From assembly GCA_017550655.1 (NCBI GenBank), contig JAFZOK010000018.1, positions 124,001-188,000 of the forward strand: a stretch of 64,000 nucleotides of DNA. The letters run 5' to 3'. Position numbers and translations under genes: made by a program. This document shows positions 1-13,251 of this stretch, in pieces. Position 1 is the stretch's first letter, and the number at the start of each line of letters is the position of its first letter. Origin of the DNA: Bacteroidales bacterium (GTDB lineage: Bacteria > Bacteroidota > Bacteroidia > Bacteroidales > UBA932). Below the pieces are notes generated by a model. The model did not search any database, was not told where the DNA came from, and saw only the letters and a list, made by a program, of their open reading frames with translations.

Positions 1-707
1 TAGGCGTCCGGAATCCTTCCGATTACTTCAGCTGCAGAGAGAACGGTTGTGCTCATACCGTCTCTTCTGGCCACGTTCTTGGCTCCTCCTTCCTCCAGGA
101 ACAGAGGTGAGGCGTTAAGTTTTGCGGCCAGTGCAATGGCGTCGAAATAGTCGCTTCCCTTTGGAGGACAAATCACTTTTACACAGTCGTTTAACCTATC
201 CTTGAACCATAGTGCGTCCAGATTGTCTTCAGGAATTGCAATCACCAGAGGAATGTTGTTGTCCGAGCATACTTGGGAGAACGCTCTTGCGGTATTGCCT
301 GCCGAGGCCACAACCAGAATTCTCTTGTTGTCTTCAGCCAGTCTTCCGCATACGGAATAGGCTTCCGTTTCCTTGAAGGAGCAGGTGCGCATAGTGGCGC
401 CTTTTTCAGGCCACCATCCGCTGTAAGTTATGTAGAGGTTCTTCAGGCCCAGCTTTTTGGCCAGGGCCTCGCTGCGGTATGTTACCGGAGCGCAGGATCC
501 TTTCAGGGCGCGGCTGACAGGGAGCCAGTCGGAGAACCTGTAGATTCCGTAGGACGGATCCTTGAACTCGATCTGCTTCTTGTCATAGATGGCCCTTACA
601 AGGGAAGGGCGGGAATCCTCAGGGTCTGCCATAAGCCATCCCGTGTCTTTGAACACTCTGTGTGTCAGGCAGTTTTCCAGGCGGTAACTCGTGGGTTTGA
701 TTTCCAT
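1..707 (-). CDS. Cysteate-synthase-like PLP enzyme (3' end beyond window)
   Basis: Fold-type II PLP enzyme related to threonine synthase. The visible 235 residues start at an ATG (705-707) and run off the left edge. The motif CSFKETEAY carries the likely Schiff-base lysine (K112), and SAGNTARAF (from residue 135) is the usual loop that holds the substrate phosphate. The N-terminus (GWLMADP, YRFSDWLP) matches my recollection of Bacteroidetes proteins annotated as cysteate synthase, which turns O-phosphoserine and sulfite into cysteate, rather than housekeeping ThrC. The gene lies 5 bases after the membrane Hdr-like gene, so it is probably the last visible gene of that operon. A threonine-synthase paralogue of other specificity remains possible. 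Confidence 0.6.
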   Translation of the reverse strand, partial: MEIKPTSYRLENCLTHRVFKDTGWLMADPEDSRPSLVRAIYDKKQIEFKDPSYGIYRFSDWLPVSRALKGSCAPVTYRSEALAKKLGLKNLYITYSGWWPEKGATMRTCSFKETEAYSVCGRLAEDNKRILVVASAGNTARAFSQVCSDNNIPLVIAIPEDNLDALWFKDRLNDCVKVICPPKGSDYFDAIALAAKLNASPLFLEEGGAKNVARRDGMSTTVLSAAEVIGRIPDA

Positions 708-712
708 ATCAT

Positions 713-2611
713 TTAGTTTTTATCATTGTTTTCAATATTCTCGCAGACAATCTCGGCAAAATCCTTTACAGGCACTTCGGCCTTGCTCCTGATCGCCCTG
801 TAGCACATAGGGCAGGCGGTGACAATCTCTTGAGGATTCTCCGCCATAAGGCTGGAAACGGAGCTCTCCGCGATCTTTGCCTTGTCTTTCTCGTCCAGAG
901 TCAAGGTTCCAAGGCTGTAGCCGCAGCAAATGCTCTCGTCCCTTTCCTTTGAGGCTTTTTTCAGTTCGGCGATGGCTCTGAGGACATTTCTTGGCTCCTC
1001 GTAAATGCCGCAGCCCCTGCCCAGTTCGCAAGGGTCGTGATAAACAATCGCTGAAGAAGATTTTGAAACCTTCAGTTTTCCTTCCTTGATGAGACTGTCA
1101 ATGAACTGGGTATAGTGGATAACTTTAATGCCTTTCAACGAGTATTCTTCCTTGAAGATCTTAAGGCAGATAGGGCAGGATACAAGCAGGGTAGTACATC
1201 CGGAGTTCCTGATTATCTTGCTGTTGGCCTCAATGGTCTGACGTGCCGCATCGCCTCTTCCGGCAAGCATCAGAGGCCTTCCGCAGCAGATTCCCTCATT
1301 GCGGTCCATGAATTCATAATCCTGGCCGCTGGCCTTGAGGATGGTTTCCACGCTCTTTATGATTGTTGGTGTAAGATGGCTCATGCATCCGGCAAAATAG
1401 AGGATCTTACCGCCGGATTTTGGATTCTCGGAACTCTTCTCCGCATATTTGCCGAGATAAGAGTAGTCGCATTGTATCTTATTGTTCTGGGTTTCTCTGA
1501 TTGCCCTTCTTATGGCAGGGGAATTGACTCCCACCGGGCAAAGCGCATAGCATTTTCCGCACATCAGGCATTTTTCTGCTATTTCTCTGGTTTTCCTTTT
1601 GTTATGCCTGCGGAGGAAACGCATGAAATAAACGGACGAATATTTGAGATTCTTCTTCTGGACATTCATAGGGCAGGCGTCCAGACAGAGTCCGCAGCTT
1701 GAGCAGGCATAAATTTCCGCCTCGGCGAAGCCTTTTCTCGGATGGCGCACCTTCAGGCCGGCATTGCGGAAGAGAATCAGAAGAGGCTCGGTCAGAATGT
1801 GCATATAGCGGGAGAAAGGCATCGCTACAAAGAAGAGTCCCAGGCAGATGGAATAAGCCCACCAGGTAGGGAGGAAGTTCAGTTCGTTTCCGAAGAATGC
1901 CCTGAATACCCAGTTCAGAGGCCTGGTAAGGAATCCGCCGCCGCTAAGGTCTGCCGTAAATCCTTCCGCCAGAAGCCTCAAAGGGAAAATCAGCCACAGG
2001 CAGTAGAGGGCAACGCGGTCTGCCAGGGATGGCTTTGTGGTATGCCTCATTCCCAGGGCTATAGACCTGACTCTCTTGAACATGGCCAGTCCGATACCGC
2101 TCAGTACGTACAGCAGCAGGAAGTCCATTATGAAGAAGAATACGGAGCCCCTGAGGGTTTCATGAGCCGGATTTATCCAGATGAAGAAGCGGTAGAAGAT
2201 AGGGTAGTAGAGAGAACCTTCAGTCAGTCCGGAAAGATGTCTTGGAGCAAAAAGCCATACCTCTATATGGCCCACTACAATGAGCAGGAACCATCCGAAG
2301 GCAATTGCCGAGTGCATATATCCCAGAAGAGGTTTCCTCTTCCATATCTTGGTGTGCAGCAGGCAGTCGCAGAATATGTCCTTTATGTTTTTCCAGGCGG
2401 TTTTCGGGTTGAAGAGCGATTTGAGAAGCTTTAGCCTGTCTTCCCCGGTCAGGTGGTATAGAATCCTGATCAAGCCTATGAAAAGGTATATCAGAATAAA
2501 GGTTATTCCTATTACGAACGGCAGTACAAAATGATTGTAGCTGTTGGGGTATCTGTCTATGATCCCTTCCGGCGAAATCTGCTGTAAGTTTGTGGTCAGA
2601 AGATAAATCAT
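713..2611 (-). CDS. Membrane-anchored HdrDE/DsrMK-like Fe-S protein with two CCG domains
   Basis: A 632-residue fusion. The N-terminal part (about residues 28-270) has roughly five membrane spans with His residues, like cytochrome b subunits of the HdrE/NarI/DsrM type. A di-[4Fe-4S] module follows (C303-x2-C-x2-C-x3-C and C348-x2-C-x2-C-x3-C). Then come two complete CCG domains (C409, C442-C443, C479, C482 and C528, C562-C563, C600, C603), the type that carries noncubane clusters in HdrB/HdrD. Expected role: passing electrons between the quinone pool and a cytoplasmic Hdr-like complex. Its ATG overlaps the stop of the upstream HdrC-like gene by four bases, so translation is probably coupled. 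The physiological substrate is unknown. Confidence 0.8.
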   Translation of the reverse strand: MIYLLTTNLQQISPEGIIDRYPNSYNHFVLPFVIGITFILIYLFIGLIRILYHLTGEDRLKLLKSLFNPKTAWKNIKDIFCDCLLHTKIWKRKPLLGYMHSAIAFGWFLLIVVGHIEVWLFAPRHLSGLTEGSLYYPIFYRFFIWINPAHETLRGSVFFFIMDFLLLYVLSGIGLAMFKRVRSIALGMRHTTKPSLADRVALYCLWLIFPLRLLAEGFTADLSGGGFLTRPLNWVFRAFFGNELNFLPTWWAYSICLGLFFVAMPFSRYMHILTEPLLILFRNAGLKVRHPRKGFAEAEIYACSSCGLCLDACPMNVQKKNLKYSSVYFMRFLRRHNKRKTREIAEKCLMCGKCYALCPVGVNSPAIRRAIRETQNNKIQCDYSYLGKYAEKSSENPKSGGKILYFAGCMSHLTPTIIKSVETILKASGQDYEFMDRNEGICCGRPLMLAGRGDAARQTIEANSKIIRNSGCTTLLVSCPICLKIFKEEYSLKGIKVIHYTQFIDSLIKEGKLKVSKSSSAIVYHDPCELGRGCGIYEEPRNVLRAIAELKKASKERDESICCGYSLGTLTLDEKDKAKIAESSVSSLMAENPQEIVTACPMCYRAIRSKAEVPVKDFAEIVCENIENNDKN

Positions 2612-2934
2612 AGAGAGTAGATTTTTTGGATTGACAATATGAGGTGGCGGGTATTGATACCCCTAGGGCAAACCATCGTGCATTTTCCGCATAGCATGCA
2701 GTGACTCAATAGTTTGGAGGCATCATCGCCGAGGCCGTTCTGGAGAGAAAGGATAGCCCTTCTGAGGCTTGTGTCTTCAAAGGCGGCGGCTGTGCAGGAA
2801 GCCGAGCAGCTGCCGCAGGCCATGCATTTGAGCACATCCGGCTCAGCGATGGCAAGCTCATTGAATTTCTCCTTGTCTGCGCTGTCGAGGTTTATCCTCG
2901 AACTTGGACTGACGCCAAAGCCGAAGTCTATCAT
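2608..2934 (-). CDS. HdrC-like di-[4Fe-4S] ferredoxin subunit (second)
   Basis: A small 108-residue protein with two classical [4Fe-4S] motifs, at C37/C40/C43/C47 and C79/C82/C85/C89. The spacing is that of HdrC, the subunit that relays electrons from HdrA to the CCG subunit. It overlaps the HdrA-like gene upstream by four bases (ATGA) and the double-CCG membrane gene downstream by four bases, so it likely pairs with the latter. It is shorter than most HdrC proteins, with little sequence beyond the cluster-binding core. Family assignment is firm; partner assignment is inferred from gene order. Confidence 0.8.
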   Translation of the reverse strand: MIDFGFGVSPSSRINLDSADKEKFNELAIAEPDVLKCMACGSCSASCTAAAFEDTSLRRAILSLQNGLGDDASKLLSHCMLCGKCTMVCPRGINTRHLILSIQKIYSL

Positions 2935-3944
2935 TTCCTGAAGTTTTCTTTAATGTAACGGTCTATTTCCATGGCGGCGCTTCGGGCCTCGTGGAGGGTG
3001 TCCGGAAGAGTTTTCGGGCCGGTGCAGGCTCCGGCATAGAAGAATCCCGGAAGCTTGCTTTTCTGAAGTGAAAGCAGGCCGTCTCTAGCGGAGAAGAAAC
3101 CGTCTTCCTCTACACTGAGATTCAGCTGCCTGCCAACTTTATGCCCGGCCTCTGAAGGCCTCATTCCGGCCATCAGCACCAGACGGTCCAGAGTGACTTT
3201 CAGCGGTCTGCTGGAGAGCGTGTCTTCCGCCTTAACCAGCAGCCTTCCTTCAGCTGTTTCAGCAACCTCGCTAACTCTTCCCCTTATGAACCTGATGCCG
3301 GATTTCTGCGCCCTCAGGTAAAGGTCCTCGTAGTGGCGGCCGAACATTCTCAGGTCCATATAGAAGCAGTAAACTTTGGCGTCCGGATAAAGTTCCTTGG
3401 TCTCAATTGCCTGTTTTACAGCGGTTGCGCAGCAGACCTTGGAGCAGGCCGGATTGCCGGCTTTCTCGTCTCTGCTTCCCACGCAATGGACAAAACCTAT
3501 GGCCTTTGGAGCCGGGTTTGAAGACTTTCCTTCTCTGAAGGCTTGCTCCAGATCGGCATTTGTAAGGACTCCATCATATATGCCGTAGCCGTATTCCTCT
3601 TTCTTTTCCGCCTTGAACATATCGAATCCGCTGGCCAGAAGAACTGCATCCGCCAGAACGGTTATTCCATTGGAAAGCATCGCGTTAAAGGAACGGTCCA
3701 GAAGGTTTATGGAGTTAACGTCGGTTTCCGTGAAGCATTTAACATCCTTGATTCCAGAGAGCATACTGTCCAGCACTTCCTTTGCCGAAACCTGGTCGGG
3801 GAACAGGCGGTCCCATTTGGCAAGGTGTCCGCCCAGACGCTTTTCCTTTTCTGCCAGAATCACGTTGTATCCCATTTGGGACAATGCTTTGGAGGCTTCC
3901 AGTCCGGCGGGTCCGCCTCCGATTACCAATATGTTGTTTTTCAT
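2931..3944 (-). CDS. Short HdrA/QmoA-like FAD protein
   Basis: A 337-residue flavoprotein with a Rossmann GGGPAG motif (residues 9-14) and the HdrA/QmoA signature FVHCVGSRD, followed by C167, C171 and C172 for a [4Fe-4S] site. Near the C-terminus GACTGPKTLPDT matches the conserved FAD-domain end of HdrA. It lacks the ferredoxin domains that bring methanogen HdrA to about 650 residues. In size it resembles sHdrA of sulfur oxidisers and QmoA. It sits between the HdrB-like and the second HdrC-like gene, 4 bases from the former. It probably forms the flavin hub of a cytoplasmic Hdr-like complex; electron bifurcation cannot be judged from sequence. Confidence 0.8.
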   Translation of the reverse strand: MKNNILVIGGGPAGLEASKALSQMGYNVILAEKEKRLGGHLAKWDRLFPDQVSAKEVLDSMLSGIKDVKCFTETDVNSINLLDRSFNAMLSNGITVLADAVLLASGFDMFKAEKKEEYGYGIYDGVLTNADLEQAFREGKSSNPAPKAIGFVHCVGSRDEKAGNPACSKVCCATAVKQAIETKELYPDAKVYCFYMDLRMFGRHYEDLYLRAQKSGIRFIRGRVSEVAETAEGRLLVKAEDTLSSRPLKVTLDRLVLMAGMRPSEAGHKVGRQLNLSVEEDGFFSARDGLLSLQKSKLPGFFYAGACTGPKTLPDTLHEARSAAMEIDRYIKENFRK

Positions 3945-3948
3945 AACT

Positions 3949-5013
3949 TTACTTCAGACAATGTGGTTTTTCAGGCTCGCCGAGATATTTCCCGTTCTTG
4001 CCCAGATATTTCTTTGCGGGGTCGTAAGGTATTCCGATTTTGTCCAGCAGCGGCTCTACAGAAACCTGATGAGTTTGAAGTCCCAGATCCCAAGGGTCAT
4101 AACCCATTACAAGGCCCGCAACCTCCTCGTAGGTGAACACCGGAATCCCGTGCCCGTCCTGACCGTAGGTTTTGCCCTGAGTCTCCGCGATTACATACTG
4201 CCACCTGTCCAGGAAATAAGGGCAGCCAGGGCAGTTGGTGATAATCATATCCGGCTTGAAAGGCTCCATGCTCTCGAATTTCTTATGGGTGTTGGAAAGC
4301 GAGTAGCCGCGGTTGCTCTTGATGAAATACTGCCTGAATCCGAATCCGCAGCAATGTCTTCTTTCCGGATAATCAACGATTTGGCCGCCCCAGGCCTCTA
4401 CCATTCCCACAAGAACGTAAGGATATTCGGCGCCTCCGACTCCCTTTGACGGGAACATTTTAGAGTAGTGGCAGCCGATATGCTCCACAACCCTGAGAGG
4501 CTCTCCAGTATTCTTGTTTACTAGCTTGAATTTGCTTTTTGCCGCTATCTGCATCCTGTATTTGAAGATGAGGTCGCTGGCATGAACCAGGAACTTAGGC
4601 TTGGCAAATTCCAGATGACAGCTTTTCCAGAGGTTCTCCGCGATTTTCTGCTGGAGTTCAGGATATTCTCTCCAGGTCTCCATAGTCTCGCAATACAGTC
4701 CGAAAGATGTTATGCAGGAGCAGACATAGTTCTCGTAACCGTATTTGTGCATCAGGGCAAACTGCCTGGCTATAATGGTCATAACAGTTTCCTGGGGAAT
4801 GGCGTCAGAGTGGTAGGCGATGCCTCCGCAAGTTGTATGGTGCTCGGTCTCGAATATGTCCTTTCCCAGCTTGTTTCTGGTTATATCCAGGAATGTAGCC
4901 TCTGAAGCGGGGAAGAAAGACTGCCTGATGCAGCTCCTGACATAGAAATAATGGTCTTCCGGTATCTCTTTCTGGTATTCGGCCCAGATTTTCTTTTTTC
5001 CTTCGTAAATCAT
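3949..5013 (-). CDS. HdrB-like CCG-domain protein
   Basis: 354 residues. The C-terminal CCG motif is complete (C181, C221-C222, C261, C264), as needed for a noncubane [4Fe-4S] cluster. The N-terminal motif is degenerate: C28, a single C62 in TCGG where CC is expected, then C98 and C100. HdrB-type subunits normally hold the catalytic clusters that cleave or form disulfides or handle sulfane sulfur. The gene starts 3 bases after the 231-aa HdrC-like gene and ends 4 bases before HdrA-like. Asymmetry between two CCG motifs is known in sHdrB1-like proteins, which fits the sHdr-like gene order. Confidence 0.75.
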   Translation of the reverse strand: MIYEGKKKIWAEYQKEIPEDHYFYVRSCIRQSFFPASEATFLDITRNKLGKDIFETEHHTTCGGIAYHSDAIPQETVMTIIARQFALMHKYGYENYVCSCITSFGLYCETMETWREYPELQQKIAENLWKSCHLEFAKPKFLVHASDLIFKYRMQIAAKSKFKLVNKNTGEPLRVVEHIGCHYSKMFPSKGVGGAEYPYVLVGMVEAWGGQIVDYPERRHCCGFGFRQYFIKSNRGYSLSNTHKKFESMEPFKPDMIITNCPGCPYFLDRWQYVIAETQGKTYGQDGHGIPVFTYEEVAGLVMGYDPWDLGLQTHQVSVEPLLDKIGIPYDPAKKYLGKNGKYLGEPEKPHCLK

Positions 5014-5016
5014 CTT

Positions 5017-5712
5017 CTAATGGTTGAAATGTTTTGGACTGCACTCGGTGTAGAGTTTCTGGCAGTACTCTTCTTCAGTAAGGCCGAGCTCCTCTGCTTT
5101 TTTCAGTCCTGCATTTTTCACGTTTTCAAGCATTTCGGTTGCTCCTGTGATATCGTAGATCCGTTTCAGTTCGTCCAGATCCTTCTGGGGTATCTTTCTC
5201 ATCGCTCCCGGACCTTCTTTGTCCAGGTTACCGCCAAGGCGGTCGAATACTTCGTCAATATTATTCTCCACCCATTGCCAAACGACTCCGGCTTCCTTAT
5301 GCCCGTCATATTTGAAGGCTCTTGCGTAAATGCAGTAGCCGTAATTTAGTATATTGTGGTTGAGGTCTTTGCACAGAAGATACATCTGCCGTCCCTTTTC
5401 GGATTCCATAAAAAGCCCGGTCTGTATAGAAAGGCTTCGCAGAGCCATTATTATCAGGCCGGCGGCGTTCTTTCTCGGGCATCTGGTTACACAGCTTAGG
5501 CATTCCCCGCAATACCAGATGGTGTCGCTTTTGAGAAGTTCCTCGATCTGGGCATCGTCCTGTTTCTGAACAATATCCACAATCCTTCTCGGATCGTAGC
5601 GGTAGAATTCCGCAGCCGGGCAGATGGCTGTGCAGGTACCGCAGTTTATGCAGGCGTTAAGGCCCTCGCGGAGCCTGTAATCCTGCATCAGTTTGTCATA
5701 TAGCTTTCCCAT
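5017..5712 (-). CDS. HdrC-like di-[4Fe-4S] subunit (first)
   Basis: 231 residues with two [4Fe-4S] motifs near the N-terminus (C21/C24/C27/C31 and C68/C71/C74/C78, the second containing CGECLSC). A helical C-terminal extension of about 150 residues follows. Size and layout match HdrC/sHdrC1 proteins that pair with HdrB. The ATG at 5710-5712 directly abuts the stop codon of the MarR gene, and the HdrB-like gene follows after 3 bases, so the three are almost certainly one transcript. The conserved role is electron transfer between the flavin subunit and the CCG clusters. Confidence 0.8.
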   Translation of the reverse strand: MGKLYDKLMQDYRLREGLNACINCGTCTAICPAAEFYRYDPRRIVDIVQKQDDAQIEELLKSDTIWYCGECLSCVTRCPRKNAAGLIIMALRSLSIQTGLFMESEKGRQMYLLCKDLNHNILNYGYCIYARAFKYDGHKEAGVVWQWVENNIDEVFDRLGGNLDKEGPGAMRKIPQKDLDELKRIYDITGATEMLENVKNAGLKKAEELGLTEEEYCQKLYTECSPKHFNH

Positions 5713-6198
5713 CTATGCCGTGACTTTACTGTTGGTAGGGTACTTTGCGGCAAGGGCCATAAGGTCTATGTCGTTGTTCATGTTCTCGGCCATCTTGCTC
5801 AGAACCCGGATGTATGCCTGCATGTCTTCCTTGGAAATGCCGTTGACTATCTTGTCTACAGCATCCACCGCGACCTTGGTGACCTTTTCTTGTATGCTTT
5901 TGGCATAATCTGTTACCTCAATCAGGTTCTGGCGGCGGTCTTTAGGATTGCTGGTCCTGCGAACCAGTTTCCTGTCTTCCAGCCCGTCCACGAGCTTTAC
6001 CACTGAATTCTTGTCTTTGAGCAGATAGTCTGCAATCTGCTGCTGGGTGAGGACACCTTCATCCCATAGAGCGTCCATAACCAGGAACTGCTCCGGAGTG
6101 ATGTTGAAACCTTGTTCTTCAAAAATGCCCGCAACATATTGCTTGAACCTGTTATGGACAAGATTGAGGAAAAAACCAATCTGTTTGCTGAGTATCAT
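5713..6198 (-). CDS. MarR-family transcriptional regulator
   Basis: 161 residues with the winged-helix MarR fold. A helix-turn-helix (QQQIADYLLKDKNSVVKLVDGL) is followed by the wing with the family DRR motif (PKDRRQNLIEVT). It is the first gene of the Hdr-like/cysteate-synthase operon and touches the next gene with no spacer, so it most likely regulates that operon and itself. A 7+7 inverted repeat overlaps its start codon and is a plausible operator. The ligand is unknown; MarR proteins in redox or sulfur operons often sense oxidants through cysteine, but this protein shows no cysteine. Confidence 0.88.
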   Translation of the reverse strand: MILSKQIGFFLNLVHNRFKQYVAGIFEEQGFNITPEQFLVMDALWDEGVLTQQQIADYLLKDKNSVVKLVDGLEDRKLVRRTSNPKDRRQNLIEVTDYAKSIQEKVTKVAVDAVDKIVNGISKEDMQAYIRVLSKMAENMNNDIDLMALAAKYPTNSKVTA

Positions 6199-6215
6199 AT
6201 AATACGAAATTATAT
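6197..6215 (-). promoter_or_regulatory. Candidate MarR operator (inverted repeat)
   Basis: ATATAAT-ACGAA-ATTATAT is a perfect 7-base inverted repeat with a 5-base spacer, placed between the probable -7 box and the marR start and touching the ATG. Size and symmetry suit a MarR dimer. AT-rich sequence makes chance symmetry easier, so this is a suggestion only. Confidence 0.4.
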
Positions 6216-6245
6216 AGTAAGAGGTTTTACTTTCATTAACGAGTA

Positions 6246-6253
6246 CAAATATA
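6246..6253 (-). promoter_or_regulatory. Bacteroidetes-type -7 box for the marR-hdr operon
   Basis: On the minus strand this reads TATATTTG, an exact match to the Bacteroidetes -7 consensus TAnnTTTG, about 48 bases before the marR ATG. No good -33 TTTG is seen at the usual distance. It indicates that the operon is transcribed separately from the antiporter gene upstream. Confidence 0.5.
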
Positions 6254-6278
6254 GCATAAAACCGGTCTTGTTGAACTC

Positions 6279-7274
6279 TTAGGCCAGAGAAATGGTCACT
6301 ATAATGTAGAGAATGTAGAGAGCAAAGAGCATCAAGCCTTCTATTCTCCTGATCTTGAAGCTTGTTCTCGCCGATACCAGGAACAGCAGGGTAGCCAGGA
6401 GCAGGAAGATGAAATGCACGTGGTTTACACTCGAGAGAGGAAGCTGGGTAACGGTGGCACAGCCTCCAAGGATCAGGAATACGTTGAAGATATTGGAGCC
6501 TATGACATTTCCGATTGCGATTCCCACTTTCTTGCGGCAGGCTGCCATTACGCTTGCGGCAAGTTCAGGAAGGCTTGTTCCTATCGCGATAATGGTTGCT
6601 CCTATGAGGGTGTCGGAGACGCCCTTTGCCCTTGCCAGGATAGTTGCGTTGTCTACCAGTATGTTACCGCCCCAGATCAGGACTGCCAGGCCGCCGAGGA
6701 ACATGATAAGGGAAATGAAGAAGTTCTTCTTGACAACAGGCTTTTCCTCTTCCTTTGTTTCTGTTCCCCTGGTTGCCTCTTCGTGCCGTTTTGCGCTGGC
6801 AAATGAATAGAACATGAACACCAGGAAGAACAGCAGGAGAATGATTCCCTCGGTTCTGGATATCACGTTTCCTGTCATCTGGTCATCTATGGTCAGGGTT
6901 TCTATCTGGGCGTCAAGGGAAACGAGAATCAGCACAACAGTGGAAAGCAGCATGAACTGCATGTCCCTGTTGACATTTAGCCTCGTAACGGTCATAGGGT
7001 AGATAATGGAGCTCAAGCCTATGATAAGCAATATGTTGCAGATGTTGGAACCCAGAATGTTACCGACGGAAAGTCCGACGCTGCCCTTCATCGCTCCCAT
7101 AAAGGAAACCACCATTTCCGGTGCGCTGGTGCCGATTGCAACGATGGTCATACCAATAATAATGTCCGAGATTCCGAAGCGGCTTGCTATCCTGGAGGCA
7201 CCCTCCACAAGGAAGTTGGCTCCTATGATAATCATCGCGAGACCTAAAATGATCAGAAGTATGGTATTTGTCAT
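6279..7274 (-). CDS. Calcium/sodium antiporter (CaxA/YrbG family)
   Basis: 331 residues, almost entirely membrane spans, built as two inverted repeats. Each repeat carries the ion-binding motif of the CaCA superfamily: AIGTSAPEMV in the first and AIGTSLPELA in the second. Each is followed by GSNI-type segments (GSNICNIL, GSNIFNVF). A charged cytoplasmic loop near residues 160-185 separates the halves. The family exchanges cations such as calcium and sodium across the inner membrane. The gene lies 19 bases after carB on the same strand and may be read from the carA promoter region, but no functional link is known. Confidence 0.88.
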   Translation of the reverse strand: MTNTILLIILGLAMIIIGANFLVEGASRIASRFGISDIIIGMTIVAIGTSAPEMVVSFMGAMKGSVGLSVGNILGSNICNILLIIGLSSIIYPMTVTRLNVNRDMQFMLLSTVVLILVSLDAQIETLTIDDQMTGNVISRTEGIILLLFFLVFMFYSFASAKRHEEATRGTETKEEEKPVVKKNFFISLIMFLGGLAVLIWGGNILVDNATILARAKGVSDTLIGATIIAIGTSLPELAASVMAACRKKVGIAIGNVIGSNIFNVFLILGGCATVTQLPLSSVNHVHFIFLLLATLLFLVSARTSFKIRRIEGLMLFALYILYIIVTISLA

Positions 7275-7293
7275 AATCTTTTGTTTTTGCGGT

Positions 7294-10200
7294 TTAATAC
7301 TCGTCCCAGCTCTTGATCTGGACCTGGTCTATGTCCAGGTTGCAGAACGCGTTTATGAATGCGCTTGCCAGGCGGGTGTTGGTCAGAAGCTGGATGTTGA
7401 AGTCAACCGCCGCCCTGCGGACCTTGTAGCCGTTGTCGAGCTCTGTCTTGGTAAGGTTCTTAGGGATGTTGACCACCATATCTATCTTCTTCTGGCGTAT
7501 CAGGTCCATTGCCTGCGGAGCCTTTCCCTTCTCGCTCGGCCAGTAAACCAGGGTTGTCTGTATGTTGTTGTCTTTAAGGTATCTGTAAGTTCCTCCGGTA
7601 GCGTAGAGCCTGTATCCCTTGCGGCTTAGCTTCTGGCAGGCTTCAAGCATCTCCGCCTTTTCCTTGCCGTCTCCGGTAGAAAGGAGGATGCCTTTGGATG
7701 GAATGCTGTATCCCACGCTGAGCATTGACTTGAGAACTGTTTCGGAAGTGTCGTCGCCGATGCATCCTACTTCTCCCGTGGAAGCCATGTCAACTCCCAG
7801 TACAGGGTCTGCCTTCAGCAGTCTTGAGAAGGAGAACTGAGGGGCCTTGATTCCCACATAATCAAGGTCGAAAGCGCTCTTGTCAGGAGTCTTGAACTTT
7901 TCTCCTGTCATTACCTTTGTTGCAAGCTCTATAAAGTTAATTTTCAGCACCTTGCTGACAAACGGGAAGCTTCTGGAAGCCCTCAGGTTGCACTCTATGA
8001 CAAGGATGTCGTTGTCCTTTGCCATGAACTGGATGTTGAACGGGCCGCTGATTTTAAGCTCTCTGGCAATGGTCCTGGAAATTTTCTTGAGCCTTCTTAC
8101 TGTTTCCACGTAAAGTTTCTGTGGAGGGAACTGGATTGTCGCGTCTCCCGAGTGGACTCCGGCAAATTCTATGTGCTCACTGATGGCGTAGGCAACTATC
8201 TCACCGTCCTTGGCCACGGCGTCAAACTCTATCTCCTTGGCATGCTGGATGAATTCGCTCACTACCACAGGATGCTTTTTTGAAACGTCTGCAGCCAGCT
8301 GGAGGAACTGCTTGAGTTCGTGGTTGTTGGAACATACGTTCATAGCGGCGCCGCTGAGAACGTAGGACGGCCTTACAAGAACCGGGTAGCCAACTTTGTC
8401 CACAAAGGCGTGGATGTCGTCCAGGGTGGTAAGCTCGCTCCAGCGTGGCTGGTTGATTCCCAGACGGTCCAGCATCGCGGAGAACTTGTGGCGGTCCTCA
8501 GCATTGTCTATGGATAGGGCGGAGGTTCCCAGAATCCTCACGTTAGCATCGTTGAGCCTCATTGCCAGATTGTTAGGAATCTGGCCTCCCACGCTTACCA
8601 CAACTCCGTAAGGTGATTCCATCTCGAAAATGTCCATTACCCTCTCGTATGTAAGCTCGTCAAAATAGAGGCGGTCGCACATATCGTAGTCTGTGGAAAC
8701 GGTTTCCGGATTATAGTTGATCATCACTCCTCTCCAGCCGCACTTGCGCAGGGTGCTAAGGCAGTTGACGCTGCACCAGTCGAATTCCACGGAACTTCCA
8801 ATGCGGTAGGCTCCGCTTCCCAATACTATAATGGACTTGTGGTCTTTCTCGTAGTTTATGTCGTTGGCGGTTCCGTTGTATGTCAGGTAAAGGTAGTTGG
8901 TTTTGGCCGGGAATTCGGCTGCCAGTGTGTCTATCTGCTTGACTACCGGGATAATACCCAGAGACTTGCGGTACTCGCGGACCTTGATTGCGTAGCTGTC
9001 AGGATCAGTCTTGCCCTTGAGCACGAGCCTTCCGATCTGGAAGTCCGAAAAGCCGCTGGCCTTTGCCCGTTTCATCGTTTCGGAGTCGATATCCCTAAGG
9101 TCCTTCAGACGGGAGAGATCCTTTCCGATCAGATGGATGTTGTAGAGTTTCTGGAGGAACCACTTGTCTATCTTGGTGGCATCGTGGATCCTGTCTACGG
9201 TGTAGCCCGCCTCAAAAGCCTTGGCTATGACAAAGATACGGCTGTCTGTAGGTTCCTTGAGCTCCTTCTCTATGTCGTCCACCTTCATCTCCTTGTTGCC
9301 CACGAAACCGTGCGCTCCGCGCCCGATCATCCTGAGGCCTTTCTGGATTACCTCCTCAAAGCTTCTTCCTATGGCCATGACTTCTCCCACACTCTTCATG
9401 CTGCTGCCTATCAGGCGGCTGACTCCGTGGAACTTGCTCAGGTCCCAGCGCGGGATCTTGCAGACTATGTAGTCAAGTGCCGGCTCAAAGAAGGCCGGTG
9501 TGGTCTTCGTCACTGAATTCTTTAGGTCGAACAACCCGTAGCCCAGTCCTAGCTTGGCGGCCACAAAAGCAAGCGGATAACCGGTGGCCTTGGATGCCAG
9601 GGCGGAAGAGCGGCTGAGGCGCGCGTTAACTTCAATCACCCTATAGTCTTCACTCTCAGGGTCAAAGGCATATTGCACGTTGCATTCTCCAACAATCCCT
9701 ATATGCCTGACTATCTTTATGGAAAGCTCCCTGAGGAGGAAGTATTCGTGATTTGTAAGCGTCTGGCTTGGAGCCACCACGATGCTCTCTCCGGTATGGA
9801 TACCCAGAGGGTCGAAGTTCTCCATGTTGCAGACAGTTATGCAGTTGTCGAAGCGGTCTCTGACCACCTCGTATTCTATTTCTTTCCAGCCCTTCAGCGA
9901 TTTTTCCACCAGTACCTGCGGGGAGAAGGTGAAAGCTTTTGCGGTGAGTTTCTTGAGTTCAGAGTCATTGCTGCAGAAGCCGCTGCCAAGCCCTCCCAGG
10001 GCGTAAGCTGCGCGCACAATCACAGGATATCCCAGCTGATTGGCGGCTTTAAGAGCATCTTCCGTGTTTTCCACGGCGTGGCTCTTTATGGTCTTCACGG
10101 ATATCTCGTCCAGCTTTTTGACGAACAGTTCCCTGTCCTCGGTGTCCATTATGGCCTGGATAGGGGTTCCCAGTACCTGTACCTTGTATTTTTCCAGAAT

Positions 10201-10509
10201 TCCGAGGCGGTAGAGTTCCACACCGCAGTTAAGGGCCGTCTGGCCTCCGAATGACAGAAGAATGCCCTGGGGCTTTTCTTTCTGAATGACCTTCTCCACA
10301 AAATACGGGGTAACCGGCAGGAAGTATATTTTGTCCGCGATGCCTTCCGATGTCTGCACGGTGGCGATGTTAGGGTTGATGAGCACTGTCTTGATATGCT
10401 CTTCCTTCATCGCCTTGAGAGCCTGGGAACCGGAGTAGTCGAATTCTCCGGCCTCGCCGATTTTAAGAGCGCCGGAACCCAGTATGAGGACTTTCTTTAT
10501 AGACTTCAT
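7294..10509 (-). CDS. carB: Carbamoyl-phosphate synthase large subunit
   Basis: 1071 residues, the standard length. The protein has two homologous ATP-grasp halves (about residues 1-400 and 550-930), an oligomerisation region between them, and a C-terminal MGS-like allosteric domain (from about 940, with STGDGKEKAEML and YATGGTYRYL). It makes carbamoyl phosphate from bicarbonate, two ATP and ammonia channelled from CarA, for pyrimidines and arginine. The start codon directly abuts the carA stop, so the two subunits are co-translated. All expected domains appear intact. Confidence 0.97.
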   Translation of the reverse strand: MKSIKKVLILGSGALKIGEAGEFDYSGSQALKAMKEEHIKTVLINPNIATVQTSEGIADKIYFLPVTPYFVEKVIQKEKPQGILLSFGGQTALNCGVELYRLGILEKYKVQVLGTPIQAIMDTEDRELFVKKLDEISVKTIKSHAVENTEDALKAANQLGYPVIVRAAYALGGLGSGFCSNDSELKKLTAKAFTFSPQVLVEKSLKGWKEIEYEVVRDRFDNCITVCNMENFDPLGIHTGESIVVAPSQTLTNHEYFLLRELSIKIVRHIGIVGECNVQYAFDPESEDYRVIEVNARLSRSSALASKATGYPLAFVAAKLGLGYGLFDLKNSVTKTTPAFFEPALDYIVCKIPRWDLSKFHGVSRLIGSSMKSVGEVMAIGRSFEEVIQKGLRMIGRGAHGFVGNKEMKVDDIEKELKEPTDSRIFVIAKAFEAGYTVDRIHDATKIDKWFLQKLYNIHLIGKDLSRLKDLRDIDSETMKRAKASGFSDFQIGRLVLKGKTDPDSYAIKVREYRKSLGIIPVVKQIDTLAAEFPAKTNYLYLTYNGTANDINYEKDHKSIIVLGSGAYRIGSSVEFDWCSVNCLSTLRKCGWRGVMINYNPETVSTDYDMCDRLYFDELTYERVMDIFEMESPYGVVVSVGGQIPNNLAMRLNDANVRILGTSALSIDNAEDRHKFSAMLDRLGINQPRWSELTTLDDIHAFVDKVGYPVLVRPSYVLSGAAMNVCSNNHELKQFLQLAADVSKKHPVVVSEFIQHAKEIEFDAVAKDGEIVAYAISEHIEFAGVHSGDATIQFPPQKLYVETVRRLKKISRTIARELKISGPFNIQFMAKDNDILVIECNLRASRSFPFVSKVLKINFIELATKVMTGEKFKTPDKSAFDLDYVGIKAPQFSFSRLLKADPVLGVDMASTGEVGCIGDDTSETVLKSMLSVGYSIPSKGILLSTGDGKEKAEMLEACQKLSRKGYRLYATGGTYRYLKDNNIQTTLVYWPSEKGKAPQAMDLIRQKKIDMVVNIPKNLTKTELDNGYKVRRAAVDFNIQLLTNTRLASAFINAFCNLDIDQVQIKSWDEY

Positions 10510-11586
10510 TTACAGGAGGTTTATGAACTGGTCAAACAAAAATTCAGTGTCGGTGGGGCCGCTTGTGGCCTCAGGGTGGAACTGGGCGGAGAAGAACGGC
10601 TTCCTCTTGTGGCGAATGCCCTCGTTGGTGCCGTCGTTCATGTTCACGAACAGCGGTTCCCAGTCCTTGTCCAGCGTGCTGTCGTCCACAGCGAATCCGT
10701 GGTTCTGGCTGGTTACAAAGCAGCAGTCCGTTCCAAGCATCCTTACCGGCTGGTTGTGGCTGCGGTGTCCGTATTTGAGCTTGTAGGTCTTTGCTCCGGC
10801 GGCCCTGGCCATCAGCTGGTTGCCCATACAGATGCCGAAGATTGGCTTGTCGCCTTTCATCGCGACCTTCAGATGATCCACTGCCTTGGTGCACAGCTCC
10901 GGGTTTCCCGGGCCGTTGGATATGAACAGGCCGTCCCACTCCAGCAGGTTGAAGTCGTAGTCCCAAGGAACCCTAATCACTTCCACGTTCCTGTTTATCA
11001 GGCATCTGAGTATGTTGTTCTTAACTCCGCAATCCACGAGTACCACCCGTTTGGTCCCATGGCCGTAAACTGTCACGTCCTTGCAGGAAACTATATCGAC
11101 CTGATTGTCCAGGTTAGGGTCTGCGACAGGGCCCTTCTTGCGGCTTCCCGCAGGCACTATCCTTCCCAGCATCGCTCCATTCTCCCTCAGTACCTTGGTA
11201 AGTTCCCTGGTATCAACCCCGTAGATTCCAGGAACCTTGTGGCTTTTCATCCACTGGTCCAGGCTTTGGGCGGAATCCCAGTGGCTATAGTTCTCCGAAT
11301 AGCAGGAAATCACCAGCCCCCTTACGTGTATCTTGTCCGATTCAAAAACCTTGGATATTCCAAATTCGTCCACCCGGTCTTCAGGTACACCATAGTTTCC
11401 GATAATGGGGTAGGTTATGCAGAGTATCTGCCCGGAATAAGACGGATCCGTGAGGCTTTCGGGGTATCCCACCATAGCGGTGTTGAATACCACTTCTCCC
11501 TCAGCACTCTTCTGATACCCAAAAGAATAGCCCTGAAATTCAAGGCCATTCTCCAATACAAGTTTTATTCTGTTGTCTGATTTCAT
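10510..11586 (-). CDS. carA: Carbamoyl-phosphate synthase small (glutaminase) subunit
   Basis: 358 residues: an N-terminal CPSase small-chain domain followed by a class I glutamine amidotransferase domain. The nucleophile elbow is FGICMGNQL, where Cys is retained and the usual His after Gly is Asn. HPEATSGPTDTE near the end supplies the catalytic His and Glu. It hydrolyses glutamine and feeds ammonia to CarB, whose gene follows with no spacer. The C69 dipeptidase gene is 30 bases upstream on the same strand. Confidence 0.96.
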   Translation of the reverse strand: MKSDNRIKLVLENGLEFQGYSFGYQKSAEGEVVFNTAMVGYPESLTDPSYSGQILCITYPIIGNYGVPEDRVDEFGISKVFESDKIHVRGLVISCYSENYSHWDSAQSLDQWMKSHKVPGIYGVDTRELTKVLRENGAMLGRIVPAGSRKKGPVADPNLDNQVDIVSCKDVTVYGHGTKRVVLVDCGVKNNILRCLINRNVEVIRVPWDYDFNLLEWDGLFISNGPGNPELCTKAVDHLKVAMKGDKPIFGICMGNQLMARAAGAKTYKLKYGHRSHNQPVRMLGTDCCFVTSQNHGFAVDDSTLDKDWEPLFVNMNDGTNEGIRHKRKPFFSAQFHPEATSGPTDTEFLFDQFINLL

Positions 11587-11616
11587 CGCAGATGAGTGTC
11601 TTTTCGGGCTTCAAAG

Positions 11617-13251
11617 TTACAAACTTCTTGCGAAAATGCTCCAGAATTCCTCCCTGAGTTCTTCCCAGGTTCTCTGTTCGGAGGCGCTCAGACGGCTGCA
11701 ATATCCGTTGAGAAGTTCAACGGCTTCATCCTTCTTTCCAGCCTTGATTAGTTCCACCGCCTTCTTTTCCAGTTCAGGGGCGTCTTCAAATATCATCCTG
11801 TCGTACTCCGAGAGGGCTTTCCTGATCTTTCCCTTGGTCCTGTCCCATCCGATTGTGGCCACCCTGTTGGTTTCCCTGAAACGCCAGATTGCGGCATCCT
11901 TGCGGTAGCGTTTCTGGCCGCACACGTCAAAGCCTTTAGGAAGTTCCGTCTGGCCTGCGTAGATTGGCACTCTAGGAGTCTGGGCAGGATTGTCAAAGGC
12001 AAAGTATGCCACTCCACCCACCTCGTCCGGAAGCCAGCTGCGGAGCTTGATTATCTCTGAGTATGAGCACTGTATTACCGCTATTGTCCTGATTCTCGGG
12101 GCGCATCCCGGCTTCAGCTGGTTAAGCAGCGTGCGGGTGTCGTTAGTCATGAATGTGCTGATAGGGGCGGTGGTGTCAGTTACAGTCACCATCTCTCCGT
12201 CTGCATTCCTGACTCTTCTCTTGACTTCTATCTTAAGGTCCTTAACCTGGTCAAAATCAGTTCCGTCGTAGGTTTCCCTATACAACTCGAACATCCTCTG
12301 CGCGCTTATCTTCTCATCCGGCTTTACGGAGAAAGGCATTTCCTCGTCCTCGAACTTGAGTCCAAGGCTCGGTGCCACAGCGTTCAGCACAAAGTACTCC
12401 CTGTAATAGAAGTTCTTGGGATATGTTGTCACCATCGGCCAGAACTTGAATGGAGACTTTCCGTCCCACAGCCCCAGTTCCCTGCACCTTTCCCTGAGGT
12501 CAGAGCCGTACATGAAGCTGTCAGGATCCTTGAAGTCTATCACTCCAATTTTCGGCACGTTGGCGCTTATGCTCACGTGGTCGTCCGGGATTCTCTGAGC
12601 GGCCCACAGCGCTCCAGGCTTCTTTCCGCTCTTTCCGCTTCCGTATATTTCAAACAGCCAGGCTTCCTTCTTGTCTATCACGGTCAGGGATTCTCCCCAG
12701 TCTCCGTAGCCGTATTCCTCTGCAAGTCTTCCCATTAGCTTGATGGCATCACGTGCAGTGGAGCATCTCTGCAGAGCTATCCTTTCCAGTTCCTCTATCT
12801 GGAACAGGCCTTCCTTGTTCACCAGCTCCCGCTTCCCTTCAGTGGTGGTTTCTCCCATCGCCAGCTGCTTTTCGTTCATGCACGGATAGGCCACATTCAG
12901 GAACCGGAACGTTTCTCCTTCCGGTGCCGGAATATAACCTTTAACCTCCGTATTTCTAAGGTCGTAAGGCTCTTCCGTGTGCAGAAGCCCCCAGCGTATC
13001 TCGTCCTGTCCTCCGGCTAACACCTTCCCCGGCTCCATTGTTACCCAAGTCCTGTAGTTGGCGTCGCAGGTATGGGATGTCATCACGCTTCCGTCATCGG
13101 ATGCTCCACGTCCAACAATAATGGATGTGCAGCTTTCCTTTGCCGGCTCATCCTCAGGAAGATATGGAACAACTTGCGCAAAAGTGCATACAGAACTTGA
13201 AAGAAACAGCACGGCAATAGCCATCGCCGATGAAAAAAGAAACCTTCTCAT
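11617..13251 (-). CDS. C69-family dipeptidase, exported
   Basis: 544 residues with an N-terminal signal peptide (hydrophobic stretch at about residues 5-25, then a TFAQ cleavage-like site). The motif CTSIIVGRGAS (Cys near residue 41) is the N-terminal-nucleophile region of peptidase family C69 (PepDA type), in which the cysteine becomes catalytic after processing. Such enzymes in Bacteroidales are secreted or periplasmic and cut di- and short peptides. The gene heads the dipeptidase-carA-carB-antiporter run and has a consensus-like promoter upstream. Confidence 0.87.
   Translation of the reverse strand: MRRFLFSSAMAIAVLFLSSSVCTFAQVVPYLPEDEPAKESCTSIIVGRGASDDGSVMTSHTCDANYRTWVTMEPGKVLAGGQDEIRWGLLHTEEPYDLRNTEVKGYIPAPEGETFRFLNVAYPCMNEKQLAMGETTTEGKRELVNKEGLFQIEELERIALQRCSTARDAIKLMGRLAEEYGYGDWGESLTVIDKKEAWLFEIYGSGKSGKKPGALWAAQRIPDDHVSISANVPKIGVIDFKDPDSFMYGSDLRERCRELGLWDGKSPFKFWPMVTTYPKNFYYREYFVLNAVAPSLGLKFEDEEMPFSVKPDEKISAQRMFELYRETYDGTDFDQVKDLKIEVKRRVRNADGEMVTVTDTTAPISTFMTNDTRTLLNQLKPGCAPRIRTIAVIQCSYSEIIKLRSWLPDEVGGVAYFAFDNPAQTPRVPIYAGQTELPKGFDVCGQKRYRKDAAIWRFRETNRVATIGWDRTKGKIRKALSEYDRMIFEDAPELEKKAVELIKAGKKDEAVELLNGYCSRLSASEQRTWEELREEFWSIFARSL

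Follow-up and report, generated by a model that had tools for sequence, protein, structure and literature searches.

The DNA analyzed here is a window of 64,000 nucleotides (G000:C24:124001-188000; contig JAFZOK010000018.1) from the assembly of a rumen Bacteroidales bacterium, GCA_017550655.1, of 2.26 Mb in 42 contigs and 88% completeness. At its left end seven genes, all on the minus strand, encode a predicted heterodisulfide reductase (Hdr)-like complex and a predicted cysteate synthase in the order marR-hdrC1-hdrB-short hdrA-hdrC2-membrane CCG protein-cysteate synthase, as read from the list of open reading frames (ORFs) and from Pfam and NCBIfam profiles. Profile labels along the operon are MarR, Fer4, CCG, Pyr_redox_2/HdrA, Fer4, Fer4 plus two CCG, and PALP/cysteate synthase, and successive intergenic gaps from marR on are 0, 3, 4, -4, -4 and 5 bases. 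An original prediction, made from the letters of the window alone, had described seven same-direction genes with near-zero gaps or 4-base overlaps, which the coordinates bear out (gaps -4 to +5), and the profiles back every label in its gene order from marR to a cysteate-synthase-like enzyme, with Hdr equivalog cut-offs not reached. The features are as follows, with protein lengths in amino acids (aa).

1..707, minus strand: cysteate synthase, first 235 codons in the window (whole 428-aa gene, L005:11421-12707:-)
713..2611, minus strand: EtfD/EMO-like membrane subunit, 632 aa (sequence and fold match to 9OJN)
2608..2934, minus strand: HdrC2-like di-[4Fe-4S] ferredoxin subunit, 108 aa (Fer4_8 40.3 bits; HdrC profile 36.2 versus 350)
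2931..3944, minus strand: short HdrA, 337 aa, FAD domain (6TJR match, E 3.7e-86)
3949..5013, minus strand: HdrB-like subunit, 354 aa (NCBIfam HdrB 137.3 bits versus cut-off of 450)
5017..5712, minus strand: HdrC1-like di-[4Fe-4S] ferredoxin subunit, 231 aa (NCBIfam HdrC 83.7 bits versus cut-off of 350; Fer4_8)
5713..6198, minus strand: MarR-family regulator, 161 aa, first operon gene (Pfam MarR_2 46.5 bits)
6246..6253, minus strand: TATATTTG, a putative match, 47 bases ahead of the marR ATG, to TAnnTTTG, which we take to be the Bacteroidales -7 box consensus

The contig extends left of the window and completes the synthase gene (428 aa). The complete protein scored 460.5 bits against the TIGR03844 cysteate synthase profile (cut-off 324.9; residues 13-409), and its best solved relative was 9K3C, "Cysteate synthase" (545.7 bits; residues 3-428). 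Threonine synthase structures reached at most 46.5 bits. Threonine synthase was rejected as the identity of this pyridoxal phosphate (PLP) enzyme, given a TIGR00260 score of 37.1 against a cut-off of 167.1 and the far higher TIGR03844 and 9K3C scores. By these matches the enzyme is a cysteate synthase (CysS) and not a threonine synthase, in keeping with the label first given to it; the grouping with threonine synthase named beforehand as part of a refuting case was not seen. The genome, 88% complete, holds two PALP matches in total and no TIGR00260 threonine synthase above cut-off, the sole match being the synthase gene itself, so either auxotrophy or an assembly gap is possible.

HdrA aligned over its full length with 6TJR (349 aa; profile residues 3-331 on 2-335), which we take to be sHdrA of Hyphomicrobium, and its residues C154, C167, C171 and C172 were invariant in the alignment (n=16). 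HdrA is thus, by alignment, of the sHdrA (6TJR) type, short and FAD-only. The C-terminal CCG site of HdrB is complete (C181, C221, C222, C261, C264) and the N-terminal site is reduced to C28, C62 and C100, invariant among 16 sequences; a CCG site presumably has five cysteines, as we take the N-terminal site of methanogen HdrB to have. The best solved HdrB relatives were methanogen HdrB proteins. HdrA, HdrB and HdrC all fell below NCBIfam equivalog or exception cut-offs (253.9/1100, 137.3/450 and 83.7/350 bits, respectively).

The membrane subunit begins with five long helices in a predicted model (mean pLDDT 85.3), for four of which a hydropathy scan exceeded 1.6 (residues 246-266 lay below). 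His86, His100 and His271, in this N-terminal helical part, were invariant in both alignments. Eighteen invariant cysteines follow the helices, eight in a ferredoxin (di-[4Fe-4S]) domain and ten in two complete CCG sites. The top solved relative, by sequence and by fold (E 9.7e-20), was 9OJN, EtfD of M. smegmatis. As modeled, the subunit has the architecture of EtfD/EMO, which we take to be ETF:menaquinone oxidoreductase: N-terminal helices, a di-[4Fe-4S] domain and two CCG sites, with haem putative. The original prediction had placed a membrane double-CCG protein in an sHdr-like set; the subunit is closer to EtfD/EMO than to an sHdrB2. Quinone coupling is expected from this resemblance.

Set against known systems, the operon shows likenesses and differences. 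Like sHdr of Hyphomicrobium and other sulfur oxidizers, it has a short 6TJR-type HdrA over its full length, the HdrC-B-A order and a proposed role in cytoplasmic sulfite formation. Unlike the C1-B1-A-C2-B2 set that we take to make up sHdr, it has C1-B-A-C2 plus an EMO-like membrane protein replacing B2; sHdr presumably also has an etfAB-emo variant. The membrane subunit shares architecture and predicted fold with EtfD/EMO (M. smegmatis, 9OJN), whereas the operon has no EtfAB genes and the partner here is HdrABC. HdrA, HdrB and HdrC are homologous to methanogen HdrABC (5ODC, 9SFI, 7BKB), including the C-terminal CCG site; yet HdrA has 337 aa here versus 643-671 in the solved chains, the N-terminal HdrB site is incomplete and NCBIfam Hdr scores are far below cut-off. 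The setting also differs from that of sHdr, as this is a gut Bacteroidales in which the operon sits with a biosynthetic sulfite consumer, and no LbpA, DsrE3C or lip genes were recognized beside it. According to the available parts of two papers, sHdr releases sulfite and needs LbpA (PMC10332631, PMC12423496). Consistent with the original prediction that no LbpA, TusA or DsrE-like gene is visible, none was recognized beside the operon (ORFs of L005, L006 and window positions 1-12000, judged by size, by eye and from the families scanned; a genome-wide search was not made). The sulfur carrier would thus differ from that of sHdr, as the original prediction also held, unless LbpA is encoded elsewhere in the genome.

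Linkage of the Hdr genes to the synthase was examined in 149 genomes of the family (HdrB threshold E 1e-20, synthase E 1e-30). HdrB was found in 62 and the synthase in 73; 53 genomes had both, 9 HdrB alone, 20 the synthase alone and 67 neither. The synthase lies on the same strand downstream of HdrB in 45 of the 53, at 3.07-3.51 kb in 44 and at 6.7 kb in G067. Two further genomes (G030, G111) keep HdrA-C2-membrane protein-synthase together with HdrC1-B elsewhere, and four (G012, G066, G102, G145) have HdrB and the synthase on separate contigs of assemblies of 120-270 contigs. Among named loci, the best 80 of 587 confirmed stretches by HdrB profile, a choice that favors close relatives, 30 contain the synthase, and gene order is the same in all 30 (L168 starts at hdrB, at a contig end). 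The nearest named HdrB relatives in this set are rumen Bacteroidales/Bacteroidia metagenome-assembled genomes (RUG13464, 99%; RGIG10221 and Tb.RUG.340, 97%). Outside the family, 25 of 243 genomes of the order have both HdrB and CysS, none within 20 kb of each other. The check across Bacteroidales that the original prediction had proposed thus shows conserved linkage, whose absence was to count as refutation; among the searched genomes Hdr-CysS linkage is confined to a single family. Across 395 sampled genomes from the phylum, HdrB was matched at 1e-60 in this genome alone; besides it, the entries listed comprise five genomes from the same order, then others from the same class.

The successive sulfonolipid enzymes are cysteate synthase, CFAT and KCR, as given in the available parts of Wu et al. 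(PMC11211663). A structure of SulA (7U7H) and Lys281 as its diagnostic residue are given in the accessible text of Radka et al. (PMC9304779). A cysteate acyltransferase gene, for which the original prediction had proposed a look to the left of the operon, was not among the ORFs of C24:96001-124000. In G021 a class I/II aminotransferase and an SDR adjoin MarR-synthase. Our genome has one CFAT/SulA match, on another contig (C30:283519-284769; 70% identity to the G021 aminotransferase), which scored 575.1 bits against 7U7H versus 211 bits against serine palmitoyltransferase and has the equivalent of SulA Lys281; a KCR-like SDR (66% identity to the G021 SDR) lies beside it. All 33 CFAT proteins inspected have the Lys281 equivalent (29 matched by pattern, 4 read), many further CFAT matches lying outside this set. 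By sequence, then, the C30 protein is SulA/CFAT, and cysteate synthase (9K3C), CFAT (7U7H) and a KCR-like SDR occur in the genome as in the sulfonolipid (capnine) pathway of Alistipes and Chryseobacterium. The available parts of PMC9304779 and PMC11211663, which describe this pathway, include no Hdr complex.

Most family genomes with the linkage have CFAT at a separate site, away from the adjoining Hdr and synthase genes. Three loci (L181, L206, L207) carry everything in one run, GLX-CFAT-KCR-HdrC1-B-A-C2-membrane-synthase. In other families Hdr and CFAT are joined by PLP2, which replaces CysS: L035 and L210 (one genus, f81), L036 (f41), L200 (f108), and L050 and L208 (family f1, genus g2); L199 (f27) has an Hdr-CFAT run. 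KCR matches in Hdr-CFAT runs are only 29-36% identical to the query SDR and are therefore called KCR-like only. The sulfonolipid connection made in the original prediction is strengthened by a CFAT and a KCR-like gene in the same genome and, in other genomes, by such genes sharing one run with Hdr. PLP2 resembles threonine synthase and scores under every cut-off. Of the 243 genomes outside the family, 64 have CysS and 46 have PLP2 (E 1e-80), and none has both (12.1 expected; p=1.6e-7, relatedness ignored), a pattern that two enzymes sharing one function would give. PLP2 is thus a candidate second cysteate synthase.

Two further observations concern the surroundings of CFAT. GLX, a two-part VOC/glyoxalase-fold protein of ~356 aa with weak structural matches to glyoxalase I only, recurs near CFAT (L035, L036, L050, L181, L195, L206-L208, L210, L217, L218). 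CFAT also adjoins a bamD-rpoZ-coaBC-porD block, with recN next in most (L191-L193, L196-L198, L204); as a third sulfite route this block was rejected as housekeeping.

HdrB and CFAT occur together across the order. Within the family (CFAT E 1e-100), 60 genomes had both, 2 HdrB only, 22 CFAT only and 65 neither. For the order outside the family (CFAT E 1e-120) the counts were 70, 6, 101 and 66, respectively (p=1.4e-7 by a Fisher test that, like the others here, takes no account of relatedness), and 4 of the 6 HdrB-only genomes are just 76-82% complete. A FastTree tree of HdrB+HdrA was built from 119 fetched loci with both genes and an HdrB of at least 300 aa. Five of six CFAT+PLP2-linked rows, together with L037 and the CFAT-linked L199, formed one starred group far from CysS-linked rows, and the PLP2-linked L050 sat among CysS-linked rows; the placement of L199 and L050 is uncertain, both being long branches. 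Linked and unlinked states required ten changes over 49 linked and 41 unlinked rows, with 29 rows near contig ends left out. Because most CFAT+PLP2 rows lie far from CysS-linked rows, the Hdr-sulfonolipid pairing seems, from this tree, to have arisen, or to have been kept, more than once.

The 20 of 73 CysS-bearing family genomes that lack HdrB need another sulfite source. Synthase loci were fetched from 19 of them (G128 was left out), and a MarR match lies within 6 kb of the synthase in 13. In all six HdrB-less synthase genomes of genus g10 (L055, L062-L066) a formate/nitrite-family transporter gene stands just before the synthase and a SulP gene after it, with MarR ahead of the former in five (L066 ends there). 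Beyond these six, CFAT and KCR matches adjoin the synthase in nine loci, and SulP lies within 6 kb of the synthase in 8 of all 19. Anion uptake, with the g10 transporter as a putative small-sulfur-anion route, could replace sulfite formation in such genomes. A literature search connecting this transporter family with hydrosulfide and sulfite found nothing, though spelling variants may have escaped it. Matches to PF01507 (PAPS_reduct) occurred in 49 of 149 family genomes, 44 above cut-off, with CysH-sized frames (239-243 aa and >160 bits, assigned by length and score) in G045, G063, G028 and G088. No CysH-sized PAPS_reduct protein was found by the PF01507 search of our 88% complete genome; ATP sulfurylase and other sulfate assimilation genes were not searched separately. 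Its sole PF01507 match is an 868-aa frame with PAPS_reductase, Fer4 and DUF4007 beside a DUF6079 protein (L209:1726-6001:+; G000:C24:49225-53500), rejected as a sulfite source on account of the DUF4007 fusion and the adjoining DUF6079. This locus probably resembles those of DNA phosphorothioation or defence proteins.

Collectively, the family linkage, the one-run clusters and the Hdr-CFAT-PLP2 pairings elsewhere indicate that the Hdr complex is part of sulfonolipid metabolism in linked lineages. The recurrent Hdr-synthase pairing points to an oxygen-independent route to the sulfonate head of sulfonolipids. For the operon itself, we see an even chance that its products are a cytoplasmic HdrC1-B-A-C2 complex and an EtfD/EMO-like partner in the membrane, which in this lineage provide the adjoining cysteate synthase with sulfite. 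Persulfide or carrier-bound sulfane sulfur would be oxidized at the HdrB CCG site and the HdrA flavin, and electrons would pass via HdrC2, then the clusters and b haems of the membrane subunit, to menaquinone. Released sulfite would displace the phosphate of O-phosphoserine to give cysteate, which CFAT and KCR, whose genes lie elsewhere in this genome, would take on to capnine and sulfonolipid. The direction of electron flow, the sulfur substrate, sulfite as product, haem content, menaquinone as acceptor, MarR control and a single transcript are features that we infer. We favor an oxidative direction on account of the sHdr-type HdrA and the resemblance of the membrane subunit to a menaquinone oxidoreductase. 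A broader proposal is made tentatively, as somewhat short of an even bet: in anaerobic Bacteroidales the Hdr-EMO system would be biosynthetic and not respiratory, converting sulfane sulfur to sulfite with menaquinone, without oxygen or sulfate assimilation, for the sulfonate of sulfonolipids; it would serve both CysS and the distantly related candidate PLP2, and anion importers could replace it.

Several observations weigh against sulfite supply by the Hdr complex. Of its two CCG sites, HdrB has only one complete, and no LbpA was recognized beside the operon although LbpA is essential to sHdr. Many Bacteroidales carry only one of the two parts, Hdr or synthase. As noted, 20 of the 73 CysS-bearing family genomes have no HdrB; 50 of the 80 named Hdr loci have no synthase in the stretch fetched (some through contig ends), most order-level Hdr loci show no sulfonolipid neighbor, and G096 and G129 hold both parts but apart. 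Outside the family HdrB is not associated with CysS (25 both, 51 HdrB only, 39 CysS only, 128 neither; p=0.12) or with CysS or PLP2 taken together (38, 38, 72 and 95, respectively; p=0.33). Half of the Hdr+CFAT genomes there (35 of 70) lack CysS and PLP2; these are among 72 CFAT genomes without either synthase, for which a third synthase or another use is possible. In G045, of the same genus, a linked operon and a CysH-sized PAPS_reduct frame coexist, so sulfate assimilation and the Hdr operon are not exclusive.

The same co-occurrence of Hdr with CFAT, but outside the family not with CysS or PLP2, would suit a complex that makes no sulfite and acts as a redox valve or in another sulfonolipid step, such as that of the VOC-fold GLX protein, which accompanies several Hdr-CFAT clusters, or lipid desaturation or reduction. 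A hydrogenase nearby would suit it too: at our locus HydB, HydA and HydC come after the synthase in the same orientation (L005:6217-10393:-, left of the window on G000:C24), HydA being a group A6 NADH-dependent [FeFe] hydrogenase (880 bits versus a cut-off of 765), and such a set recurs after the synthase in L102-L104. Those three are the only loci among the 80 named ones with HydA near Hdr, and the hydrogenase was therefore rejected as a standing Hdr partner and treated as local. A role without sulfite also sits poorly with the family genomes in which Hdr adjoins the synthase and CFAT lies elsewhere, and with genus g10, where a small-anion transporter holds the place of the Hdr genes beside the synthase. 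We regard it as unlikely.

A reductive complex, splitting thiosulfate or an S-sulfonate (R-S-SO3-) to thiol or sulfide plus sulfite that feeds cysteate synthase, would account for the same Hdr-synthase linkage, and SulP-family anion transporters adjoin the synthase in several genomes. Reductive disulfide cleavage is also the reaction of methanogen HdrB, to which this HdrB is closest among solved structures. The short sHdrA-type HdrA and the likeness of the membrane subunit to a menaquinone oxidoreductase argue against this direction, as do the potentials: thiosulfate reduction to sulfite and sulfide, at about -400 mV, is hard from menaquinol (-74 mV) without proton motive force, whereas the sulfane sulfur/sulfite couple, at a derived value of about -40 mV, fits menaquinone and fumarate (+30 mV). 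A reductive role is accordingly improbable in our estimate. An old gene order kept by descent, without functional meaning, would explain why linkage to CysS was seen in one family only among the genomes searched and is left untouched by tests that ignore relatedness, but it is very improbable, since other families also have Hdr linked with sulfonolipid genes, in different gene orders and with a different PLP enzyme, and all 30 named synthase-linked loci preserve the order.

Supply of sulfite by a dedicated Hdr complex, if true, would answer where an anaerobe without recognized CysH gets sulfite for cysteate, a question for which our literature searches returned no answer. Roles of Hdr complexes would then extend beyond energy metabolism into lipid biosynthesis, and the complex could serve as a testable marker of organisms that produce sulfonolipids. 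Since CysS and PLP2 exclude each other, PLP2 is also put forward as a possible second cysteate synthase. In mostly non-subscription literature we found no paper joining sulfonolipid with heterodisulfide reductase, and none bringing capnine, sulfite and cysteate together; subscription literature was thinly covered and an earlier description is possible. Sulfonolipids of gut Bacteroidota are reported, in the available parts of PMC11211663, to modulate inflammation.

Other genes near the operon, or related to it, were also recorded. An antiporter-like membrane gene (labeled by eye) lies just before marR at window positions 6279-7274, and a similar gene is upstream of the Hdr genes in several relatives in a tblastn panel. 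To the left, L006:42-8441 (G000:C24:96042-104441) is a run of lysine aminomutase-, CoA-transferase-, acyl-CoA dehydrogenase- and EtfBA-like genes, labeled by eye, that suggests lysine fermentation to butyrate; its etfBA-like genes stand ~19 kb left of the synthase, in a gene run separate from the operon, which has no etf gene. A second HdrC1-HdrB pair, without HdrA, occurs in L059 (G064) and L060 (G030), adjoining genes for a CoA-disulfide reductase with a rhodanese domain, a metallo-beta-lactamase-fold protein and an MrpORP-like Fe-S carrier (genes annotated in L060, assigned by similarity in L059).

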